Of a stretch of DNA of 64,000 bases, positions 1,268 through 12,128 are shown piece by piece (position 1 is the stretch's first letter; every line of letters begins with the position of its first letter). The notes under the pieces were generated by a model. It had not been told where the DNA came from. It saw only the letters and a program-made list of their open reading frames with translations, and made no database searches. The position numbers and the translations under genes are program-made. Origin of the DNA: Actinomycetota bacterium (lineage in GTDB: Bacteria; Actinomycetota; Geothermincolia; Geothermincolales; RBG-13-55-18); the NCBI GenBank assembly GCA_013178005.1, contig JABLXL010000001.1:1-64000 (forward strand), read 5' to 3'.

Positions 1268-2485
1268 ATGAGTTCACACGATCTCTTTCCCTGCATGTAC
1301 GAATGGATGAGCGACATGGACGTGTCGCTGGCGGGCAACCTCAGGCGCTGGGCCGAGAGCGAGCTCATGGAAAAGCGCCTGGAGTTAAAGGAGGACTACG
1401 CGGCCCTTCTTGCCCCCGCCATGCGCAAACTCTTCTGTGACATCGGCCTGCAGCGCCTGTTCTGGCCGGAGGCGCACGGAGGCGACGGGCACAACAGCCC
1501 CTCCGCCGCCTACACCATGGTTGCGGCGCTGGAACAGGTGGCGCGGGGCGACACGGGCATCGCGTTGTTGCTCTCGTCGCTGTGGGCCCTGCAGACCTGC
1601 GTGGCGACGGAGGGACGCGTCAACGAGGAGGCCTGCGAGGCCCTCTCGCCCGTCATCACCTCGAATGACGCGCCAGCCATCGTATCCCTGGTCCTCCCCC
1701 TCTTCCGGGACGTGCCCCAGGCGAAGGCCAAGCTCTCGCGCGGGTCGTGGTCGGTGGAGGCGGAGAAGGCCCGCCCGGCCTCGTCCGGCGCCGACGCCTC
1801 CGTCTTCGCGGTGCTCTGCGCCCTGGAAGGCGTGGACGACCCCGGGGACGCCCTCGGGATCGTCGCGATCCCCGGCGACGCCAAGGGGATCAAGCGCGGG
1901 AGCGCGTTCCTCAAGACGGGCCTGGCGGCCGACCGCAACGCCGACGTGGAGTTCGCCAAGGTGAAGGCACCGGAGGCCATGTGCGTGGCCAGGGGCGTCG
2001 AGGCGTGCCGCGCCGCCCTGGCCTGGTTCTACCTGGGAGTTTCCGCCAGCAACGTGGGGGCTTTGTTCGCCTGCCACGAGATCCTCAAGGAATGGGGGGA
2101 CAACCGCGTCATCAAGGGCAAGGGCAACATCTTCAAGGACAACCCCCTCACCGCCGCGGTAATGGCGGAGGTGGCCAAGGAGATCAGCGTCGACCGCCTG
2201 CTGACCTGCGACCTGGCGCGCGTGTTGGCGGAGCCCGCCATCTACGGTCCGGCGGGATCTGAGGCGAACTTCGTCACCGCCTCCATGGTGGCGCACCAGG
2301 TGGCGCAGTCGGCGGAGAAGGCCATAGGAAACGCCATGGAGATGATGGCCTCCGCCGGGTACGCGACGGAATGGAACCTGGAGCGATACTGGCGTGACAC
2401 CAAGACCATGCAGCTCTGCCTGGGGCCCTACGAGCTCGCAAAGATGGATGTGGCCAGGTACTTCTACCAGAGCCAGGCCCGCTGA
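1268..2485 (+). CDS. Acyl-CoA dehydrogenase-like flavoprotein, first of a pair
   Basis: About 405 residues, close to the family's usual length. Family signs are a helical N-terminal domain, a middle beta domain and the C-terminal stretch GYATEWNLERYWRDTK, which matches the family's GY..E...R..RD.K motif. The member is divergent. Where medium-chain enzymes carry the catalytic Glu (EGT), I read LCLGP. The alternative Glu site of isovaleryl-CoA-type enzymes aligns with Cys in GVEACR. It may be a non-catalytic partner or use a different base. The start was chosen because GGGGAGG lies 7-8 bases upstream of ATG 1268; an upstream in-frame ATG at 1166 lies within the leader repeat. It heads the operon that includes the second dehydrogenase and the reductase complex. 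Substrate unknown. Confidence 0.85.
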   Translation: MSSHDLFPCMYEWMSDMDVSLAGNLRRWAESELMEKRLELKEDYAALLAPAMRKLFCDIGLQRLFWPEAHGGDGHNSPSAAYTMVAALEQVARGDTGIALLLSSLWALQTCVATEGRVNEEACEALSPVITSNDAPAIVSLVLPLFRDVPQAKAKLSRGSWSVEAEKARPASSGADASVFAVLCALEGVDDPGDALGIVAIPGDAKGIKRGSAFLKTGLAADRNADVEFAKVKAPEAMCVARGVEACRAALAWFYLGVSASNVGALFACHEILKEWGDNRVIKGKGNIFKDNPLTAAVMAEVAKEISVDRLLTCDLARVLAEPAIYGPAGSEANFVTASMVAHQVAQSAEKAIGNAMEMMASAGYATEWNLERYWRDTKTMQLCLGPYELAKMDVARYFYQSQAR

Positions 2486-2585
2486 GGGGAGGAAAGGACG
2501 TGGCCATGCGGTTGAACGGCATCTCCCGCGCTGCGGCGAGTCCATCCCCCGAGGCGGATGAGGCGGATAAGGAGAGGAGCTTATC

Positions 2586-3854
2586 ATGAGGACCATAGAC
2601 GATTTCACCCGCCCCCTGGAATATCTTTCCCCGCTGGACGATCCCCTGGGGAAGATCGTGCGCGACTGGGCCGAGAACTACGTCATCCCCCACCGCCGCA
2701 AGTTCGACGAGGACTGGAAGGAGCACGCCCTCATCGAGCCCGCCTTCAAGAAGCTCATGGGCGAGTTGGGCATGCAGCGTGTGCTCTTCCCCGAGGACTT
2801 GGGGGGGTGGGGCCTGGGGCGCTCCAACTACGTGGGCACCGCCTCCTACCGGCTTTTTGAGGAGGTGGCGCGCGCCGACTCCGGCATGGCGGTGGCCTTC
2901 GGCGTAGTCTACTGGCCCATGGTGATGATTGCCATGGAGCCCCACGTCAACCGCGAGCTTTGCGAGGAGTTCGCCCCCATCTTCTGCAACACCACCGAGC
3001 CGCGCTTCGCCGCCAACGCCATGACCGAGCCCCAGGGCGGCGCGGACATAGAGAACATGGAGATCGTGGGCGGGTCCACCATCCAGACCACGGCGGTGCT
3101 GGACGGCGACGAATGGGTCATCAACGGCCACAAGCTTTGGCCCACCAACTCCGGAGGGGTGTGCGACCTCTTCGGGGTGGTCTGCACCACCAACCCCGGC
3201 TCGCGCGACCCCAACGACTTCGCCTTCATCTTCGTCCCCGCGGACACCCCCGGGGTCACCCAGGGGCCTCCCTACCAGAAGGCGGGCATGGCGGCGGACA
3301 AGAACGGCGACATCTGGTTCGAGAACGTGCGCGTGCCCAAGTCCTACCGCGCTCACGGTCCCGGCCTCGACCTCATGTATTTCAAGGAGGTCATCTCCTT
3401 CGGGAACATGGGGTCCATCTCCTTCGTGGGCGGCGTGATGCTCAACGTCTTCGAGCGCCTGTACGAGTTCGTGAGCTCCGAGACCTACAAGGGCCAGCCC
3501 CTCAAGGAGCACGACGCTGTGGCGGGGGTGCTGGCGGATTTCGTCAGGGACACCGAGATCGTGCGCATGTGCGGCTACCAGTACGCGCGCATGCTCGACC
3601 GCCCCGACCTCTACGGGCCGCGCTGGAGCGATGAGATGGTGGCCAAGGGGCGCGCCATCAAGTACTGGGCTTGCGACCAGGGCATGGCGGACGTGGGGAA
3701 GGCCATGAACCTCATGAGTTCCTACGGGGCGGACCGCGACTGGGACATCGAGAAACACTGGCGCGACCTCAAGATCGTGCAGCTCTGGATGGGGGGCAAA
3801 CAGCTCTGCCAGGCCGAGGTGGCGCGCTGGTTCTTTGACCTGGAGACGGTATAA
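2586..3854 (+). CDS. Acyl-CoA dehydrogenase, second of a pair
   Basis: 422 residues; a better match to the acyl-CoA dehydrogenase family than its neighbour. The middle domain contains AMTEPQGGADIE and INGHKLWPTN, typical of the flavin/substrate loop, and the C-terminus contains a W.IEKHWRDLK motif. The usual Glu in the EGT loop is replaced (VQLWMGGKQ), as in the first gene. The ATG follows AGGAGAGGAGC at suitable spacing. The gap from the first gene is 100 bp, same strand, so co-transcription is likely. Heteromeric acyl-CoA dehydrogenases with unequal subunits are known in actinobacterial steroid catabolism; a heteromer here is an inference. The likely role is FAD-dependent alpha,beta-oxidation of an unusual acyl-CoA, passing electrons to an electron-transfer flavoprotein not present in the window. 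Confidence 0.88.
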   Translation: MRTIDDFTRPLEYLSPLDDPLGKIVRDWAENYVIPHRRKFDEDWKEHALIEPAFKKLMGELGMQRVLFPEDLGGWGLGRSNYVGTASYRLFEEVARADSGMAVAFGVVYWPMVMIAMEPHVNRELCEEFAPIFCNTTEPRFAANAMTEPQGGADIENMEIVGGSTIQTTAVLDGDEWVINGHKLWPTNSGGVCDLFGVVCTTNPGSRDPNDFAFIFVPADTPGVTQGPPYQKAGMAADKNGDIWFENVRVPKSYRAHGPGLDLMYFKEVISFGNMGSISFVGGVMLNVFERLYEFVSSETYKGQPLKEHDAVAGVLADFVRDTEIVRMCGYQYARMLDRPDLYGPRWSDEMVAKGRAIKYWACDQGMADVGKAMNLMSSYGADRDWDIEKHWRDLKIVQLWMGGKQLCQAEVARWFFDLETV

Positions 3855-3971
3855 GACGACATGTGGCAATATATGGTAGTAGGGCCGGGAAGAGAACGGG
3901 GCAGCGCGGCACATCCTGCACGGGCCGGATAGGCTGCCTCGAGTGGGTGAGATAAGGAGGTAGGGGGAGAC

Positions 3972-4391
3972 ATGCAGGAGACGGCGATCGAAAAGCACGG
4001 GGCGGCGGAGCGGCTGTTGCGGGAGCTCATACGCAGCCCCAAGTTCAAGGCCTCGCTCAGGGTGCTCACCGCGAACATCGATCCCGCGACGGCTTCCGGG
4101 TTGGCGAGGACGCTTTTGTGGGAGGACGCGGAGACCTTCATGGGGACGGTCTCGCTGCTGCCCGCGATCATCAACTTCCAGGTCGCCCTGGCTCGGGACA
4201 TCGCGGCGCAGCTCAACTCGATGCCGCCGGACATCCTGGTGGCCTTCATGGGGCAGCTCGCGGAAAAGATAGATTTCGCCGCCGCGGAAGAGGCGGTCAG
4301 GGAATTCAAGGTGGCCCTGGACAGGCTGGCCCCGGTGATGGAAAAGCTCAAGGAGTCCTCCTCGGGCCTGTTCGCCCGGGCGCGGGAGTAA
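3972..4391 (+). CDS. Small helical protein of unknown function, related to the next gene
   Basis: 139 residues, not recognised. The sequence RLLRELIRSPKFKASL, then an Ala-Arg-Thr-Leu-Leu-Trp-Glu-Asp segment, parallels residues 30-80 of the next gene's product (LVRELIRTPGFKELL ... VRTFIWEDV). The two are therefore paralogues, this one covering only the N-terminal third. It is predicted almost entirely alpha-helical with no signal peptide or membrane segment. A good ribosome binding site (AAGGAGGTAGGGGG) precedes ATG 3972. Its position between acyl-CoA dehydrogenases and the reductase complex suggests an accessory or scaffold role, which is inference only. Confidence 0.7.
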   Translation: MQETAIEKHGAAERLLRELIRSPKFKASLRVLTANIDPATASGLARTLLWEDAETFMGTVSLLPAIINFQVALARDIAAQLNSMPPDILVAFMGQLAEKIDFAAAEEAVREFKVALDRLAPVMEKLKESSSGLFARARE

Positions 4392-4539
4392 GGCGGCGGA
4401 AATGGAGGATAACGTGTCGACGGCATGGATAAACGTTTCCTCGGCGCCGAGGCGGTTGACCATCCCCGGATCGTGGATGGAGGATACCGTGATCACGGCG
4501 CGGATAACGGATGATCCGCAGGCATGACAGGGGGTTGCC

Positions 4540-6186
4540 ATGGTTGAACAGGCGAACATGGAAAAGATTCTCAAGGAGGCTGCCGGGGGCGCCGACGGGG
4601 GAGGCGCCGGCGCGGGCATGGGATACAGCGCCCTTCCGGGGCTGGTCAGGGAGCTCATCCGCACCCCGGGCTTCAAGGAGCTCCTCCTCATCCACCTGCG
4701 CGACGTAAACCCGGAGAACGCGGCGGAGCTGGTGCGCACCTTCATCTGGGAGGACGTGGCCTTCTCCATGAGCGTCCTGGGCGCGTCTCCTTCCCTGGTG
4801 AACTGGGTGGTGGAGCTGCTGCTGGAACTGGGCAAGCAGCTCAACAACTTCACCCTGGACATCCTCAAGGATTTCATCGCGCGACTGGGCAAGGACCTGG
4901 ACACCGAGAGGCTCAAACAGCTGCCTTCCGCTTATGCCCCCCTGGTCAACCAGCTCCTGCTCGAGGACCGGGAGGCGCTGGACGCCCTCATCGCGGGAAT
5001 CGGAGCGGCGGCGGAGCGCATGATGCAGGCGGGCGAGAGGACGTGGCGCAAGATATGGAACACCGCCGACTTCGGCAAGATCCGTGTGGGGCTCACCGCT
5101 CATCTCGAGGCGCGCCGGGCGGAGCTGGATGGCGAGCCGGGGTTGCTCAACCCCGTGGCCATTTCCAACCTCCTGGGCGTGGTGCCGCCCCTGGCCAACT
5201 ATACACTGCGGGTGATCACACGTGCCTTGCAGTCCCTCAACCTGCCGGCCGAGATCCTCGCCAACGCCGTATTCCAGCTCCTGGAAGACATCGACATGGC
5301 GGAGATGGGAGGCCTGGTGAACGCCCTCGCGGGCCTGGTCACCGCCCTGCATCGCGGCAACCTGGTGCTGGGTCGCGATGAGCCACGCTTCAAAGGGGTG
5401 CTCGAGCGCGTCACGCGCGAGCTGGTTGACAACGTCGACGGGGAGGCCTTCCGCGAGATGCTGGTGGCCCTGAAAGAGGACGGCGCGGTCATCGGCCAGG
5501 TGGTTTCCGGTTACATCTACGCCACGCCCGAGAGCACGGCCCAGGTGGCGCGAGCCCTGTACCTCGCGGTGGGGGCGGCATTGCGCTCCGCCGCGGAACA
5601 CATGCGGCGTTTCTCGGAGTTGCCCTCTGAGGCGGTAGCGGCCATGGACGCCTACTTCGAGGAAGCCGTGGACCCGAGGGAGCTGGCGCGGATCATTAAT
5701 TACAACGCCGTCCTGCTCAACAAAGCCCTTGACGCCAGGCCCGACCTTCTGCCTGGTTTCATGGCGAAGTTGCTGGCGAGCCTGGACAACGAGGCCCTGG
5801 CGGAGGCGGGGAAGAAAATAGCCTTGCAGTTGAGCGACGCGGCGCTGTCAGACCCCGCCGTCAAGGCGGCGCTGGAGCCGGAGGCGGTGGGGGAGAGGAT
5901 TAACGCGGCGCTGGCGGCCTTCAACGCCTTCGCGTGGAGAAACCCCGGACTCTTGGCGGAAAAGGCGGAACGGGTTCTGGCCACCATCAACGTGGACGAG
6001 CTGGTGCTGGCGGGATCTGAGTTAGCGGCGGCGGCGTTTACTGCCTTGCGCAGGCACCCGGAGGTGATCGGTAAGGCCGTGAAACCGGTGATGGCCAAGG
6101 CAGCGGCGCCGGCCGCGGCGGCCGCGGCGGCATTAGGCGCCCTGCTATGCGCCGGCCTGCTCATCCGCAGGTTGAGGAAACGGTGA
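4540..6186 (+). CDS. Large helical protein with C-terminal membrane anchor, unknown function
   Basis: 548 residues, not recognised. Residues about 30-120 match the smaller upstream paralogue. The rest is a long series of amphipathic helices with repeated 'LLN/LV.LV' spacing. Around residues 510-545 an alanine-rich hydrophobic run ending ALLCAGLLIRRLRKR forms a single transmembrane helix followed by basic residues. The topology is that of a tail-anchored protein with its bulk in the cytoplasm. It ends 14 bp before the reductase subunit gene, so it is firmly within the operon. It may tether or organise the acyl-CoA enzymes at the membrane; that is inference. ATG 4540 has only a weak ribosome binding site; the in-frame ATG at 4558 is an alternative. 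Confidence 0.7.
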   Translation: MVEQANMEKILKEAAGGADGGGAGAGMGYSALPGLVRELIRTPGFKELLLIHLRDVNPENAAELVRTFIWEDVAFSMSVLGASPSLVNWVVELLLELGKQLNNFTLDILKDFIARLGKDLDTERLKQLPSAYAPLVNQLLLEDREALDALIAGIGAAAERMMQAGERTWRKIWNTADFGKIRVGLTAHLEARRAELDGEPGLLNPVAISNLLGVVPPLANYTLRVITRALQSLNLPAEILANAVFQLLEDIDMAEMGGLVNALAGLVTALHRGNLVLGRDEPRFKGVLERVTRELVDNVDGEAFREMLVALKEDGAVIGQVVSGYIYATPESTAQVARALYLAVGAALRSAAEHMRRFSELPSEAVAAMDAYFEEAVDPRELARIINYNAVLLNKALDARPDLLPGFMAKLLASLDNEALAEAGKKIALQLSDAALSDPAVKAALEPEAVGERINAALAAFNAFAWRNPGLLAEKAERVLATINVDELVLAGSELAAAAFTALRRHPEVIGKAVKPVMAKAAAPAAAAAAALGALLCAGLLIRRLRKR

Positions 6187-6200
6187 CGGGGGTGTGAGAG

Positions 6201-7313
6201 ATGAGGACCTTGCAGAGCCAGTCAACGGATATCTATACCGAGTACGTGCGGGACTGGAAGGAAAAGGGAGGGAAGGTCCTGGGCTACGCCTGCGTGGCCA
6301 CCCCCGTGGAGCTCATCGAGGCCGCGGGCATCCTGCCCTACCGCATCAAGGCCTTCGGGCATCCCGACACCGAGCTGGGAGACGCCTACCTGGCGCGCTT
6401 CAACTGCCGTTTCTGCCGCTCCTGCCTCCAGCTGGGACTGGACGGGACCTACGATTTCCTGGACGGCCTGGTAGAGACCAACGGGTGCGACCACCTGAGG
6501 GGGATGTTCGAGAACTGGCAGTACGTGAAGAAGTATGATTTCTTCCACTACCTCAAGGTGCCCCACTTTCTGCGCGAGGACTCCCTGGAATATTTCACCG
6601 AGGAGATCCAGTTAATGCGCCAGGCGATCGCCGAGCACTTCGGGGCCGAGATCAGCGACGACGCCCTGCGAGAGGCCATTGACGCATACGATGAGGTCTT
6701 CGCCAAGCTGAAGCAGGTGTACGCGCTGCGGGAAAAGGTCCCGCCCGCGCTCACCGGGGCCGAGGTCATGCGCCTCATCTGCACCGGCTCCTCCATGACG
6801 GCCAGGGACTTCTCAGCCTTGCTGGACGAAGTGCTTTCGGAAAAGGAGGGCGCCCGGGTGCCTGAATACAAGGCGCGCCTGATGATCCTGGGGAGCGCCA
6901 CCGACGAGGTGGATCTCATCGCGGACATCGAGTCCACCGGGGCGCTGATAGCGACGGACGCCCTGTGCTACGGCTCACGCTCCTTCTGGAGCAGGGAGGG
7001 GGAGAGCGGGGATCCGGCGCGCCTTCTGGCGGAACGTTACCTGGGAAACCTTTTCTGCCCGCGCATGTTCACCGAGTACGAGAAGCGCCGCGACTACATC
7101 CTGGAGACGGCGCGGCGCGCGGGGGTGGAAGGCGCCATCATCACCTACAACAAGTTCTGCGACCTGCACGGGGTGGAAGCTGTGTCCCTGCGTATGGACC
7201 TGGAGGACGCGGGCATCCCGGTGCTGGTGCTGGAGAAGGACTACGGCTCCAAGGCCGACACCGGCCGCATCAAGACGCGCGTCCAGGCCTTCCTGGAAAG
7301 GCTTGGCAAGTAG
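6201..7313 (+). CDS. 2-hydroxyacyl-CoA dehydratase / benzoyl-CoA reductase family subunit (BzdN/BcrC-like)
   Basis: 370 residues, the usual length of the smaller subunit. It begins with the family pattern of a Tyr/Ala-Cys-Val-Ala-Thr-Pro motif (residues about 30-35). Candidate iron-sulfur ligands are Cys in CRFCRSC (about 71-77), TNGCDHLRG and KFCDLHGVE near residue 320. In this family, two related subunits bind a double-cubane or 4Fe-4S cofactor and receive electrons activated by ATP hydrolysis in partner subunits. The adjacent larger subunit and two activases complete a class I benzoyl-CoA reductase-like set. Aromatic-ring reductase, or dehydratase of an (R)-2-hydroxyacyl-CoA, are the alternatives; sequence alone does not decide. 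Confidence 0.85.
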   Translation: MRTLQSQSTDIYTEYVRDWKEKGGKVLGYACVATPVELIEAAGILPYRIKAFGHPDTELGDAYLARFNCRFCRSCLQLGLDGTYDFLDGLVETNGCDHLRGMFENWQYVKKYDFFHYLKVPHFLREDSLEYFTEEIQLMRQAIAEHFGAEISDDALREAIDAYDEVFAKLKQVYALREKVPPALTGAEVMRLICTGSSMTARDFSALLDEVLSEKEGARVPEYKARLMILGSATDEVDLIADIESTGALIATDALCYGSRSFWSREGESGDPARLLAERYLGNLFCPRMFTEYEKRRDYILETARRAGVEGAIITYNKFCDLHGVEAVSLRMDLEDAGIPVLVLEKDYGSKADTGRIKTRVQAFLERLGK

Positions 7314-7326
7314 GAGGTGAAGGGCC

Positions 7327-8727
7327 ATGGCACAGGTGGAGATAAGGCCATACGAAGGGCTCATCAACCGCGTCTACGAGATCTTTTCCATCGTGGACAA
7401 GCTGCCGCTCAACATGAGCGACGAGGAGGTGGAGGGGATCATGCACGTCCTCCCTGCCGACCTGGCCAAGACCATGCGCGCCTTTACGATACCGCGCATA
7501 CGCAATACCAGCCTCAAATTCCTGGGGCTGATGAAGAAATGGCTGGACGGGGCGCACGAGGCCAAGCGCGTGGGGAAGAAAGTGATGCTGGTGCCTTTCA
7601 ACTTCCCGCCCGAGATCGTGCACAGCTTCGAGGGCGCATGGCCCATCACCAGCGAGGTGCTCTCCACCCTGGGGGTGGCGGCCCTGGAGGGACAGGGCGA
7701 GAGGTACTGGGATTACGCCATGGGGTTGGGGCTTCCGGATTTCGCCTGCTCGGCGAACATGATCGAGGTGGGATCGGCGCTCACGGAATCGGATTTCGCG
7801 CCCGACGCGGTGATCTCGGACTGCTTCGCGTCCTGCGACATCAACTCCAAGACCCACGAGTTCCTGGCCCGTTACCTGGGCATCCCCCTCCTTTTCCTGG
7901 AGAAGACGGTGGACAACAGCGAGCGGGGGATCAAGCAATATTACAAGTACTTCTTCCGCCTCATCGAGGACATGGAGGAGTATCTGGGCGAGAAACTGGA
8001 CGAGGAGCGCATGCGCGCGGTGGTGGAGAACGCCAACCGCGCCTCTGAGCTTTTCTGGGAGCTTTGGGACCTGCATAAGTTCGCGCCCTGCCCCGTGCCC
8101 AACGTCTTCTCCCTCATGGTCTATGGCGTGCGTTATACCATGTGGGGAACGGAGGAGGCGGTGCAGGTCATACGGGATATGGTGGAACTTTCCAAGGAAA
8201 GGCTTGCCAGGGGAGCTTATCCGGCGGAGGCGGAGGTGGCGCGCAGCCTCTGGACCTACACCAGCTACTACTTCGATATGGGGGGTCTCTTCAACTGGAT
8301 GGAGGAGAACGGCATCACCCACCTGGGAGACGGCCTCGACCTCATCTTCCCGCAGCCCATAGACCCCACGTCACGGGAGAGCATGCTCACGGGGATGGCG
8401 GAAATAGCGCGCAACATGCCCATGACGCGGCAGATGGGGGCGAGTTCCATGTCCGTGCAGTGGCTTGACGACATCACCTGGGCGTCGCGGGAGCTGGACG
8501 CGAACTGCTGCATCTACTGCGGGCACCATTCCTGCAAGCAGACCTGGAGCGGAGCTTCTGTGGTGCGCTCCGAGCTAATGAAGCGCGCGAAGATACCCAC
8601 TTTGATACTGCAGGGGGACTCATGGATAAAACGGATGACCCCCATATCCGTTCTGCAGGAGACCATAGAGGAGTTCGTGAACAACGTGGTGAAGAAACGT
8701 GAGGCACCGGCACGCGCGACCGGATGA
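7327..8727 (+). CDS. 2-hydroxyacyl-CoA dehydratase / benzoyl-CoA reductase family large subunit (BzdO/BcrB-like)
   Basis: 466 residues. Conserved cysteines are in DFACSANM (about 140), ISDCFASCDINSK (about 160-172) and the cluster CCIYCGHHSCKQTW near residue 400, followed by a GDSWIKRMTP block. These fit the cofactor-binding subunit of the family. The length is nearer BzdO of the Azoarcus-type reductase than the HgdA/B dehydratases. It starts 13 bp after the smaller subunit with TAGGAGGTGAAGGGCC upstream of ATG, so the two are translated together. A close paralogue lies at 10725-12128. The substrate is not determinable from sequence. Confidence 0.85.
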   Translation: MAQVEIRPYEGLINRVYEIFSIVDKLPLNMSDEEVEGIMHVLPADLAKTMRAFTIPRIRNTSLKFLGLMKKWLDGAHEAKRVGKKVMLVPFNFPPEIVHSFEGAWPITSEVLSTLGVAALEGQGERYWDYAMGLGLPDFACSANMIEVGSALTESDFAPDAVISDCFASCDINSKTHEFLARYLGIPLLFLEKTVDNSERGIKQYYKYFFRLIEDMEEYLGEKLDEERMRAVVENANRASELFWELWDLHKFAPCPVPNVFSLMVYGVRYTMWGTEEAVQVIRDMVELSKERLARGAYPAEAEVARSLWTYTSYYFDMGGLFNWMEENGITHLGDGLDLIFPQPIDPTSRESMLTGMAEIARNMPMTRQMGASSMSVQWLDDITWASRELDANCCIYCGHHSCKQTWSGASVVRSELMKRAKIPTLILQGDSWIKRMTPISVLQETIEEFVNNVVKKREAPARATG

Positions 8728-8766
8728 TCCCAGGGGAGGGAGTAAGCGAACAAAGGGAGGTTGGAT

Positions 8767-9558
8767 ATGTACTATGCCGGCATCGACGTCGGGTCTCTCA
8801 CCGCGCAGGCGGTGGTGATCAACGCCAAGGGGATCGTGGCCTACAAAAGCATAGGCGTCAAACCGCACCCCGTGCAGTCCGCCAAGACGGTGGTCGACAT
8901 GCTCATACAAGAGCAGGGCATCAACTGGAACGAGGTCAAGTTCTGCGTCAGCACCGGCTACGGAAGGGAGCAGGTGCAGGCGGAGGGACTGTCCCAGGAC
9001 AACGTGAGCGAGATAAGCTGCCACGGCATGGGGGCCTCCTGGCTGGTGCCGGATGTACGCACGGTCATCGACATCGGGGGCCAGGATGCCAAGGTGATCC
9101 GCGTGGGGAAGGGCGGGGAACTCGTGGACTTCGTCATGAACGACAAGTGCGCGGCCGGGACGGGGAGGTTCCTGGAGGTGCAGGCGCGCACCCTCGGCCT
9201 TTCCCTGGACGAGCTGGGAACGGTTTCCTTCTCGGCCGAGCGCACCCTGGAGCTGTCCAGCCGGTGCAGCATCTTCTGCGAGACGGAGGTGCTGCATTAC
9301 CTCCAGCGAGGGCACACCAAGGCCGACATCGCAGCGGGCGTGAACCGCGCCATGGCTGAGCGCGTGGCCGCCCTGGTGCGCCGCGTGGGGCTGGAGAAAG
9401 AAGTGACCATGAGCGGCGGGGTGGCCAAGAACGCCGCGGTGCGCGCGGAGCTCGAGCGCATGCTCAACGTGCGCCTGATTAAGTACGACACCGACTCCCA
9501 GATCGTGGGGGCGCTTGGGGCCGCGCTCATGGCGCGCAAGATGGGAGGCGGATCATGA
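8767..9558 (+). CDS. BadF/BcrA-type ATPase activase, subunit 1 (BzdQ/BcrD- or HgdC-like)
   Basis: 263 residues of the ASKHA-fold activase family. Motifs in order: GIDVGSLTAQ (phosphate 1), STGYGR, DIGGQDAKVI (phosphate 2), NDKCAAGTGRFLE, SSRCSIFCETE and SGGVAKN. The two Cys positions (NDKC and SSRC) ligate the 4Fe-4S cluster shared across a dimer interface. It hydrolyses ATP to drive low-potential electron transfer into the reductase subunits. ATG 8767 was chosen over the in-frame TTG at 8761 because AAAGGGAGG ends at 8760, which leaves correct spacing only for the ATG. It overlaps the next gene by four bases (ATGA). Confidence 0.88.
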   Translation: MYYAGIDVGSLTAQAVVINAKGIVAYKSIGVKPHPVQSAKTVVDMLIQEQGINWNEVKFCVSTGYGREQVQAEGLSQDNVSEISCHGMGASWLVPDVRTVIDIGGQDAKVIRVGKGGELVDFVMNDKCAAGTGRFLEVQARTLGLSLDELGTVSFSAERTLELSSRCSIFCETEVLHYLQRGHTKADIAAGVNRAMAERVAALVRRVGLEKEVTMSGGVAKNAAVRAELERMLNVRLIKYDTDSQIVGALGAALMARKMGGGS

Positions 9559-10328
9559 AATACCTGGGTCTGGACGTGGGGAGCCTGTACACCAAGGCGG
9601 TGGTGATGGACGGCGACATCCTGGCGGCCTCGCGGGTCATCGAGACCACCGGCAACGTGTCCGACGAGGTCCAGGAGCTGGTGGACGCGGTGCTTTCCGC
9701 CGCCGGCGTTACGGAGAGCGGGCTGGGCGGGATCGGGGTCACCGGGCGCGGCGCCGAGCTGGTCGAGGTGGGCGACGTGCGTCGCGACGACGTTTCATGT
9801 CTCGCCATGGCGGTGAGCCGCTTGGTGCCGGACGCCAACCTGGTGCTCGACGTGGGCGGGCAGAGTGTGACCTCCATACTCATCGATGGTGAAGGCTGCG
9901 TGGTGGATTTCATGCGCAACGACAAGTGCGCATCGGGGTCGGGAAAGTTCCTCACCGTGATGGGTGCCGCCCTTGGATATGGGGTGGAGGAGCTGGACGA
10001 GGTGGCGGCGCGCTCCCGCAACAAGGTGCCGGTGAGCTCGCAGTGCGGCGTCTTCGTGGAGAGCGAGCTCATAACCCACGTGAACGACGGCGTGGACCCT
10101 GCGGATATCATGGCAGGGATATGCGAGTCGGTGGCGAAGATCCTCATCTCCCAGGCGTTGAAGTTCGGGTTCCAGGACGAATACACCATCACCGGAGGCG
10201 TTGCCAAGCTGCGCTCGGTAGTGGACCCGGCGAAGGAGAAGATACGAGGTGAGTACCGGGACTTTCCCTTCGACCCGCAGCTGGCTTGTGCCGTGGGAGC
10301 TGCCTTCCTTGCAGAAGAGGAAGCATAA
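9555..10328 (+). CDS. BadF/BcrA-type ATPase activase, subunit 2 (BzdP/BcrA-like)
   Basis: 257 residues, homologous to but clearly different from the preceding activase. Motifs: GLDVGSLYTK, TGRGAELV, DVGGQSVTSI, NDKCASGSGKFL, SSQCGVFVESE and TGGVAKL. The Asp of GGQD is replaced by Ser here. The cluster-binding Cys of NDKC and SSQC are kept. Two unequal activase subunits are a hallmark of benzoyl-CoA reductases rather than the HgdC homodimers of 2-hydroxyglutaryl-CoA dehydratase systems, supporting a reductase-type complex. Translation is coupled to the first activase through ATGA. It ends the contiguous operon; repeats follow. Confidence 0.86.
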   Translation: MKYLGLDVGSLYTKAVVMDGDILAASRVIETTGNVSDEVQELVDAVLSAAGVTESGLGGIGVTGRGAELVEVGDVRRDDVSCLAMAVSRLVPDANLVLDVGGQSVTSILIDGEGCVVDFMRNDKCASGSGKFLTVMGAALGYGVEELDEVAARSRNKVPVSSQCGVFVESELITHVNDGVDPADIMAGICESVAKILISQALKFGFQDEYTITGGVAKLRSVVDPAKEKIRGEYRDFPFDPQLACAVGAAFLAEEEA

Positions 10329-10377
10329 GAGGTCGGCCCTTGGCGGAATAGGAGGAGGAGGAATAAGGGCGTAGTCC

Positions 10378-10629
10378 TTGTCTAATGTATGAAGGGAGCT
10401 CCCACCTCGGGGTCGGGAAGCTAGCGATGGCTCGGTCCGGAACAAGGCCCGATCGCTCTGATCGCTCAGCTTGTGGCCTATGGCCAGCCCTGACCCCTAG
10501 CCCTTCTTGTCTATTACATGAAGGGAGCTCCCACCTCGGGGTCGGGAAGCTAGCGATGGCTCGGTCCGGAACAAGGCCCGATCGCTCTGATCGCTCAGCT
10601 TGTGGCCTATGGCCAGCCCTGACCCCTAG
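10378..10629. repeat. Two direct copies of a 129-bp repeat
   Basis: The copies are 10378-10500 and 10507-10629 and nearly identical, with a period of 129. Each runs from CTTGTCTA through GGGAGCTCCCACCTCGGGG to GGCCAGCCCTGACCCCTAG. The last part is the GGCCGAGGGGTCAGGGCTGG end of the dispersed element in inverted orientation; the GGGTCGTATCTTGA core is absent. It separates the reductase operon from the paralogous subunit gene. Confidence 0.9.
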
Positions 10630-10724
10630 GCCTAGGAGATGCTTAAGGGGACGCAGGATCACGCGAGTAAGAGCCGGCGAAGTAACCAATGATCTTATCG
10701 CGGCGAAACGAAGGAGGAGATCCA

Positions 10725-12128
10725 ATGGCGGGAAGCGAGGTCAGGGAATACGAAGGCCTGGTGAACCGGGTTTCGGGTATATTCGGTCTGCTGAAATATT
10801 TCCCGGAAGACATGAGCGACGAGGAGGTAGAGGGAGTTCTCCATATATTGCCATCCGATATGGCAGCCACTATCAATGCAGTGATGGCGCCACGTATACG
10901 CAGGGCGAGCATTGCCTTCCTGAAGGGGTTCCAGGAGTGGTTCGACGGGGCCCTTGCCGCCAAGGCTCAAGGGAAGAAGATAATCCTGGTGCCCTTCAAT
11001 TTCCCGCCAGAGTTCATATATTGCTTTCGAAATGCCTACCCCCTCACAAGCGAGGTGCTCACCGTTTCCGGTGTGGCTTCCCTGGAGGGGCAAGGCGAGA
11101 GGTACTGGGACTTCGCCATGGGGCTAGGGCTGCCAGATTACCTGTGCTCTTCCAACACCATCGAGTTGGGATCAGCCCTTACGGGGGCGGACTTCGAGCC
11201 GGACGCCATCGTCTCCGCGGCGCCCGGTAGCTGCGACGCTAACTCCAAGATCCACGAGTTTGTTGCCCGTTACCTCGGGGTTCCACAATTCCTGTTGGAC
11301 AAGCCTGTCGACGATTCCCCGCGGGGACGGCGCGCCTACCGCACTTACTTCCGCGCCCTGGTCAAGGACATGGAGGATTTCCTGGGTGAGGAGCTGGAAG
11401 AAGAGCGCATGCGGGGGGTGCTTTCCCGCGCCAACGAGGCGACGCGTCTCTATTACGACCTATGGGAAATGCGCAAGGCGCGCCCTAATCCCTGTCCCAA
11501 CCTGTTCACCCTTTATGCATACGGTATCCGTTACACGCTTTGGGGGACGGAGATCGCCCCGCGGGTGCTGCGGGTGATGCTCGAGACGGTAAAGGAACGG
11601 TTGGAGAAGGGTCTCTATCCCTCGGAAGAGGAGGTAGCCCGCTGCTTCTGGATTTACACGTATTACTACTGGGACTGGTACGGTTTCTTCAACCGCATGG
11701 AGGAGAGAGGGATAACCGTGCTGGGCGACCTGTTGGGGTCCTTTTTCTTCCAGCCTGTGGACACCTCTACCAGGGAGAGCATGATCGATGGGTTGGCGGA
11801 CACCTGTTGGGATTATGCCATGACCAGGCAGGTGGGCGCGGAGTCCATGTCCTCCCAGTGGTTGGAGGACATCTCATATTGGACGTCGCATCTCGATGCG
11901 GACGCCTGTATCTACTGCGGTCACCATTCCTGTAAGCAGACCTGGAGCGTGTTCTCGCTGGTGCGGGGGGAGATCATGAAGCGCTCCAAGCTTCCCACCC
12001 TCATGCTGCAGGGAGATTCCTGGATCAGGCGCATGACTCCCATGAGCGCGCTGGACGAGCAGATCGACGAGTTCGTAGCCACGGTATTGAAGAAAAGGCG
12101 GACCACTCCCGCTCGCCAGGTGGGTTAG
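10725..12128 (+). CDS. Second BzdO/BcrB-like large subunit, paralogue of 7327-8727
   Basis: 467 residues, co-linear with the 466-residue subunit upstream. It keeps LCSSNT, SCDANSK and ACIYCGHHSCKQTW and the terminal GDSWIRRMTP block. The second cysteine of ISDC is lost (VSAAPGSCD here). ATG 10725 follows AAGGAGGAGA at good spacing; an upstream ATG at 10689 lacks such a site. No second small subunit or activase accompanies it, so it probably shares the partners encoded upstream and may change substrate range, or be a recent duplicate. Third-position bases look slightly richer in A/T than in the first copy. The stop codon TAG is immediately followed by the dispersed element. Confidence 0.85.
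   Translation: MAGSEVREYEGLVNRVSGIFGLLKYFPEDMSDEEVEGVLHILPSDMAATINAVMAPRIRRASIAFLKGFQEWFDGALAAKAQGKKIILVPFNFPPEFIYCFRNAYPLTSEVLTVSGVASLEGQGERYWDFAMGLGLPDYLCSSNTIELGSALTGADFEPDAIVSAAPGSCDANSKIHEFVARYLGVPQFLLDKPVDDSPRGRRAYRTYFRALVKDMEDFLGEELEEERMRGVLSRANEATRLYYDLWEMRKARPNPCPNLFTLYAYGIRYTLWGTEIAPRVLRVMLETVKERLEKGLYPSEEEVARCFWIYTYYYWDWYGFFNRMEERGITVLGDLLGSFFFQPVDTSTRESMIDGLADTCWDYAMTRQVGAESMSSQWLEDISYWTSHLDADACIYCGHHSCKQTWSVFSLVRGEIMKRSKLPTLMLQGDSWIRRMTPMSALDEQIDEFVATVLKKRRTTPARQVG

Follow-up and report, generated by a model that had tools for sequence, protein, structure and literature searches.

A separate clade of the BCR/HAD radical-enzyme superfamily in a conserved operon of an uncultured hot-spring bacterium: a candidate ATP-dependent acyl-CoA reductase

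Overview

We report a nine-gene operon of an uncultured hot-spring bacterium. Its products probably form a new clade of radical acyl-CoA reductases that depend on ATP, are driven by ferredoxin and act on a CoA ester that is not benzoyl-CoA (estimated probability about 0.58). What is new here is a separate clade of the BCR/HAD radical-enzyme superfamily; the superfamily itself is already known. A sequence-only reading of the window (the whole stretch of 64,000 nucleotides that was analysed) had proposed an uncharacterised ATP-dependent acyl-CoA reductase system at this place. Its assignment to a BCR/HAD-type system has held; the other part of the proposal, that the net reaction is a reduction rather than a dehydration, is considered rather probable. 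The operon was found described nowhere in a search confined to open-licence papers, which agrees with the earlier remark that this gene setting was new.

The locus, its host and its genes

The window is the start of a 145-kb contig (C1) in a genome of 3.6 Mb that is 97% complete. Because its closest named relative is Candidatus Solincola daggyaiensis (91% identity in the O protein), the host was assigned to Candidatus Solincola, which we take to belong to the class Geothermincolia. Gene coordinates were obtained with a home-made codon-model gene caller, and the genomes used for comparison were MAG assemblies. Positions 1268-12128 were resolved into a block of nine genes, all on the + strand:

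ACAD1, 1268..2485, + strand: degenerate acyl-CoA dehydrogenase-like protein of 405 aa, without the TEP FAD motif and without the catalytic Glu
ACAD2, 2586..3854, + strand: acyl-CoA dehydrogenase-like protein of 422 aa, FAD motifs present (MTEPQGG), Met at the catalytic Glu site
H139, 3972..4391, + strand: short helical protein of the H548 family, no known family
H548, 4540..6186, + strand: all-helical protein, C-terminus of this window copy hydrophobic and basic
N, 6201..7313, + strand: small HGD-D subunit, 370 aa
O, 7327..8727, + strand: large catalytic-type HGD-D subunit, 466 aa
P, 8767..9558, + strand: activase (ASKHA ATPase) of 263 aa, motifs NDKCAAGTG and SSRC
Q, 9555..10328, + strand: second, unequal activase of 257 aa, overlapping P by 4 bases, motifs NDKCASGSG and SSQC
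O2, 10725..12128, + strand: second large HGD-D subunit of 467 aa, 59% identical to O and sharing its ligand residues

All genes lay at the positions read before from the sequence, and the lengths of N, O, P and Q agreed with those given there. Profile searches with Pfam and NCBIfam identified PF06050 in N (9e-84) and O (5e-44), PF01869 in P and Q, and acyl-CoA dehydrogenase domains in ACAD1 and ACAD2; the Pfam bit scores of N (282), O (152), O2 (150), P (195) and Q (158) were all above cut-off. The two BcrB/C-type subunits and two unequal activases named in the sequence-only reading were thus borne out. Its count of large subunits was right for O and incomplete in leaving out the second one, O2, at 10725-12128. 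With two HGD-D types and BcrAD/BadFG activases above the Pfam cut-offs, the system belongs to the BCR/HAD superfamily. No ferredoxin gene occurs within the operon of the window, as had been noted.

Two near-perfect intergenic tandem repeats were observed in the same region. One, at 917-1267 directly upstream of ACAD1, consists of three 117-bp copies, and a GTG start at 1166 would translate through one of them. The other, at 10377-10633 between Q and O2, consists of two 129-bp copies.

Conservation and distribution of the operon

The genome scan yielded 62 loci, and most genomes of the class had an O-type protein. The order ACAD1-ACAD2-H(1-3)-N-O(1-3)-P-Q is common to the whole class, to Syntrophomonadaceae and other Bacillota MAGs, and to Archaeoglobi, the O gene being multiplied two- to threefold per operon in relatives. 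Since the same order was found in two domains of life, the gene layout is not due to chance. In Archaeoglobales, the system occurred in 6 of 57 genomes, a patchiness that suggests lateral transfer. Every named host from the scan was an uncultured MAG or scaffold.

In most operon copies the last two genes encode an ACS-like protein of ~240 aa, related to the CdhC/ACS A2 region (PF03598, 7e-14), and then a CooC/MinD-like ATPase. A shorter form, N-O-P-Q-ACS-like-CooC, was found in MAGs of Deltaproteobacteria and Myxococcota and contained neither ACAD1/2 nor H. The ACS-A2-like protein of one locus (L044, 14677-16139) and its homologues have a conserved C-terminal C-x2-C-x5-C and adjoin a CooC-like ATPase wherever found; possibly, the two proteins are a cluster-maturation pair for the double cubane. 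At three loci (L041, L042 and L050), N-O had no adjoining activase. In one of these (L042, contig C18 of genome G006, 6821-8755), N has at its side, in place of the activases, an HdrD/GlpC-like Fe-S protein and a second protein with the C-terminal domain of methylene-THF reductase, which suggests another electron donor.

The genome of the window has a second full operon copy on contig C40 (L009, G000:C40:20000-39900). This copy includes an ACAD2 with the catalytic Glu, an extra small membrane-like protein, a ferredoxin-type protein and a single activase, and it is divergent from AAA and CoxE/VWA (MoxR-type chaperone) genes and thioredoxin/thioredoxin reductase genes, likewise in two other genomes (G006 and G007). 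One activase together with an ACS-like and CooC-like pair was also located on contig C38.

The small subunit and its double-cubane ligands

Six Cys ligands of the [8Fe-9S] double cubane of BzdN are named in the BzdNO structure paper (PMC11971306). In a MAFFT alignment that included four true BzdN sequences, C31, C69, C96, C256, C286 and C320 of the window N aligned with these ligands, and all six were found in 26 of 26 operon-type N sequences (six-site reading CCCCCC in each, versus PCCACC in HadC). BzdN and DCCP were the only characterised references with all six, the full set being absent from HadC and from MbdN, three of whose sites were without Cys in this alignment. Near the distal sub-cluster, Arg48, Arg260 and His323 were kept in most bacterial N sequences, whereas HadC has lost the Arg/His there. 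Two other HGD-D proteins of the same genome, which group with HAD/MBR, likewise have six Cys. Judged from the alignment, the six Cys appear to be neither necessary, since MbdN is without them, nor proven sufficient, since these two HAD/MBR-grouping proteins have them.

At loci L010 (C67), L011 (C45), L013 (C41) and L012 (C45), the genome holds three further HGD-D pairs and a true DCCP above cut-off. In these pairs the small subunits have six Cys and the Tyr97 site is occupied by Tyr, as in BzdO; one pair lies beside acyl-CoA ligase and enoyl-CoA hydratase genes.

On the N side, the Bzd type, which the earlier reading had called nearest in subunit lengths, was also nearest by profile: N scored 193 bits with TIGR03190 (BzdN), 177.7 with NF040772 (DCCP), 140 with BcrC and 139 with HadC, and matched BzdN in the PDB at 1e-56. 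These scores were below the equivalog cut-offs of both BzdN (453.8) and DCCP (350). Among the Bzd equivalogs tested (TIGR03190/03191/03192), O reached 19.8 of 448.6 bits and P 190.7 of 380.2 bits, and none of the Bzd, Bcr, HAD or DCCP equivalog cut-offs was reached by any protein of the system. The cluster motifs were present in both P and Q.

In a 90-row tree, which contained partial HadB and no Bcr references (Bcr was compared by profile scores), all N rows formed one clade (support 99) and all O rows another (support 100, with a stem of 2.3 changes per column), with no reference enzyme inside either. A careful N-side tree again recovered the N clade (100/99) and did not fix its sister group; in the AU test, neither N with BzdN (p 0.42) nor N with HAD/MBR (p 0.21) was rejected. 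As far as these trees can tell, N and O are thus clades of their own outside the BZD, MBR, HAD and DCCP references, and the branching inside known dehydratases that would have spoken against the sequence-only reading did not occur.

The large subunits: a kept cluster site and an altered pocket

For BzdO, the same paper names the cluster ligands Cys95/128/380 and the catalytic Glu65, in addition to His131, Tyr97, Gln274 and Tyr298, which contact benzoyl-CoA (PMC11971306). On the basis of a shared TSE motif and the Cys spacing, E110, C141, C170 and C403 of O correspond to Glu65, Cys95, Cys128 and Cys380, and these four residues were invariant in all O sequences. By contrast, the site of His131 was occupied by an invariant Asn (N173), and that of Tyr97 by Ala or Ser across O (A143 in the window; Gly in two sequences). 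No Gln or Tyr of O aligned with Gln274/Tyr298, in a region where the alignment is less sure. His177, His401 and Lys404 were new invariant residues of O. From the kept Cys/Glu ligands set against the changed benzoyl-CoA contacts, it therefore appears that the electron path and catalytic cluster were retained and the substrate pocket was rebuilt.

The predicted model of O (pLDDT 85.8, pTM 0.88) matched HadB, BzdO and MbdO with TM scores of 0.69-0.73 in Foldseek, HadB being the best; with DCCP included, the range was 0.68-0.73 at 16-20% identity. Because the model is similarly close to all four, the fold alone cannot separate a reductase from a dehydratase. A new radical acyl-CoA dehydratase has thus to be considered, in which one ATP-activated electron, afterwards recycled, would turn a hydroxyacyl-CoA into a ketyl radical at the cluster of O, with net loss of water, and the ACADs would act on the resulting enoyl-CoA. 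Such an enzyme would be in line with the top Foldseek match, with the presence of HadB among the nearest NCBIfam matches of O, with the absence of His131 from both O and HadB, and with the AU test, which does not reject N with HAD/MBR. However, all six double-cubane Cys and, in most bacterial members, the distal Arg/His residues that HadC lost are found in N, whose BzdN and DCCP scores (178 bits for the latter) exceed that of HadC, and the activases are of two unequal types rather than one homodimeric type. We regard a dehydratase as unlikely, though worth keeping in mind.

Pathway context

The genes that surround the system in other genomes were also inspected. TetR, PaaK-type ligase and EtfAB genes adjoin ACAD1-ACAD2-H-N-O at one locus (L055), and at another (L056) ACAD2-O is adjoined by OYE, a BbsAB-like thiolase with a DUF35-type subunit, enoyl-CoA hydratase, an ACAD and FadD. 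FrhB-like and indolepyruvate:ferredoxin oxidoreductase genes precede N-O-P-Q at L121, and an MFE-2 hydratase, an SDR and an acyl-CoA ligase lie around the N-O-P-Q-ACS-like-CooC form at L052, L057 and L147. Taken together, these neighbours suggest that CoA-activated acids are broken down by a beta-oxidation-type route supplied with reduced ferredoxin, rather than by the benzoyl-CoA pathway.

The search for ring-cleavage genes elsewhere, proposed along with the sequence-only reading, gave a consistent picture: 6-oxocyclohexenecarbonyl-CoA hydrolase (OAH) and dienoyl-CoA hydratase were above cut-off in 0 of 29 genomes of the class. As just two of the four control genomes with a true bzdO passed the OAH cut-off, E-values were used beside it; the OAH match was no weaker than 1e-44 in any of the four controls and did not reach 1e-40 in any of seven other hosts of the system. 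With the bzdO genomes as control, the canonical benzoyl-CoA pathway was rejected on the lack of lower-pathway enzymes above cut-off in the class. A diverged ordinary class I benzoyl-CoA reductase whose ring-opening genes lie elsewhere in the genome would fit the four-subunit layout, the proximity of N to BzdN and the best, if weak, NCBIfam match of both ACADs, cyclohexanecarbonyl-CoA dehydrogenase. This explanation nevertheless seems very improbable in view of the OAH and dienoyl-CoA hydratase results and of the O residues that replace Tyr97 and His131 or leave Gln274/Tyr298 without an aligned match, and benzoyl-CoA itself is hardly to be expected as the substrate. The aromatic substrate mentioned in the sequence-only reading is no more than a possibility: no BCR equivalog cut-off was reached, the BzdO residues that contact benzoyl-CoA are changed, and the class is without the canonical ring-opening enzymes.

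The acyl-CoA dehydrogenase-like and helical proteins

Both ACADs, as had been pointed out, are without the usual catalytic Glu: the C-terminal catalytic site reads LWMGG in ACAD2 and LCLGP in ACAD1, versus YEGT in known ACADs. ACAD2 has kept its FAD-binding region (MTEPQGG, WVINGHKLWPTN) and is highly conserved, its identity being 58-59% with homologues from archaea and 75-78% with those from Bacillota. At the Glu site, most relatives have Met or Leu; exceptions with Glu or Asp are few and include the C40-type paralogue (LVEGSKQL). A catalytic acid of ACAD2 at the isovaleryl-/long-chain-type site was also considered and rejected, no conserved Glu/Asp being seen by eye in the sequence near residues 270-290. 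ACAD1 and ACAD2 probably form one heteromeric flavoprotein.

These features bear on a further explanation, namely that N-O and P-Q do not turn over a substrate themselves but work as an activation system or DCCP-like reductase and deliver low-potential electrons to a protein partner, for example the flavin of ACAD1/2 or the ACS-like protein. It would account for DCCP models scoring near BzdN for N, for an ACAD2 that is very conserved yet without a base, and for the ACS-A2-like protein and CooC-like ATPase in the operon of many relatives. However, N-O-P-Q occurs without ACAD1/2 and H in Deltaproteobacteria and Myxococcota, O keeps the Glu and three Cys like CoA-ester enzymes, and its multiplication per operon is what would be expected of a substrate-specificity subunit. 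Electron delivery to a protein is thus judged to be quite unlikely.

H139 and H548 matched no Pfam or NCBIfam family, in agreement with their earlier description as unrecognised helical proteins. For H548, there was also no match in PADLOC or in a Foldseek/PDB fold search, and its weak helical PDB profile matches look like chance. The AF2 model of H548 had a pLDDT of 78.5 and a pTM of 0.52.

Proposed function and significance

In favour of a radical acyl-CoA reductase we counted the six Cys of N, the invariant Glu/Cys of O, the separate clades, the cluster motifs of P and Q, the HadB/BzdO/MbdO-like fold of O and the neighbour genes at L055, L056, L121, L052 and L147. Counted against it were an O fold as near to HadB as to BzdO, the two AU p-values, the fact that six Cys are not diagnostic, the operon without a ferredoxin and the three loci without an adjoining activase.

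The following scheme, catalytic steps and substrate alike, is our proposal from the gene content, conserved order, ligand conservation, clades and fold described above. Reduced ferredoxin would reduce the cluster common to P and Q, and ATP hydrolysis would drive the electrons on to N, whose double-cubane [8Fe-9S] cluster would store them. The electrons would then pass to an open-site [4Fe-4S] cluster of O (or O2), where the CoA ester beside Glu110 would undergo reduction by way of a radical. O and O2 may serve as alternative substrate-specific subunits using the same N and P/Q. The substrate is likely to be an acyl-CoA of a beta-oxidation-type pathway that is conjugated, alicyclic or aromatic (other than benzoyl). 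As one FAD-binding heteromer, ACAD1/2 would act on the same CoA ester by other means than classical alpha-proton abstraction; H might tether the system to the membrane or to a hydrophobic substrate, and the ACS-like and CooC-like partners might serve cluster maturation. A fuller version of this proposal can be offered tentatively: a hitherto undescribed, ATP-driven radical reductase whose CoA ester would not be benzoyl-CoA but one that is alicyclic, polyunsaturated, similar to an isoprenoid or steroid, or built on another ring. It would have a double-cubane N of its own, catalytic O subunits that can be exchanged, an ACAD heteromer without the catalytic base, and ACS-like/CooC-like factors dedicated to maturation, and it would be shared laterally among Archaea and several bacterial phyla.

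With such a further conserved lineage of six-Cys N and plug-in O subunits, found in deep-branching anaerobes and archaea, this chemistry would reach a wider range of substrates. The lineage also lends itself to comparative study of the formation and use of the double cubane. The system may also explain the use of recalcitrant carboxylic acids by uncultured hot-spring and subsurface anaerobes.

Comparison with known systems

Similar to HadBC-HadI, (R)-2-hydroxyisocaproyl-CoA dehydratase (PDB 3O3M), the system has the O fold (best Foldseek match), the activase family and, presumably, CoA-ester radical chemistry. On the other hand, HadC is without equivalents of Cys36 and Cys263, the HAD activase is of one homodimeric type, and in the trees N and O branch outside HadC and HadB. 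DCCP and its reductase (PDB 6ENO, 7YYL) share the six-Cys N-type subunit and an ATP-driven activase; however, DCCP is a homodimer without a catalytic O-type partner, whereas N has a distinct three-Cys O as its partner, falls outside the DCCP clade and coexists in its genome with a separate true DCCP (484 bits, cut-off 350). The four-subunit architecture is also that of MbdONPQ, 3-methylbenzoyl-CoA reductase (PDB 9GAI), whose MbdQ is closer to P than any other activase of solved structure, but MbdN is without three of the six double-cubane Cys. BzdNOPQ (PDB 8S02; PMC11971306) resembles the system in its four-subunit plan, the six Cys of N, the Glu and three Cys of O, and two unequal activases with cluster motifs. 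It differs in that N and O here form separate clades and the proteins stay below every Bzd equivalog cut-off, in the length of O (466 aa versus about 437 aa), in the replacement of BzdO His131 by Asn and of Tyr97 by Ala/Ser, in the benzoyl-CoA lower pathway, which is absent here, and in the additional O2, ACAD1/2 and H proteins that the new operon brings together with N, O, P and Q.
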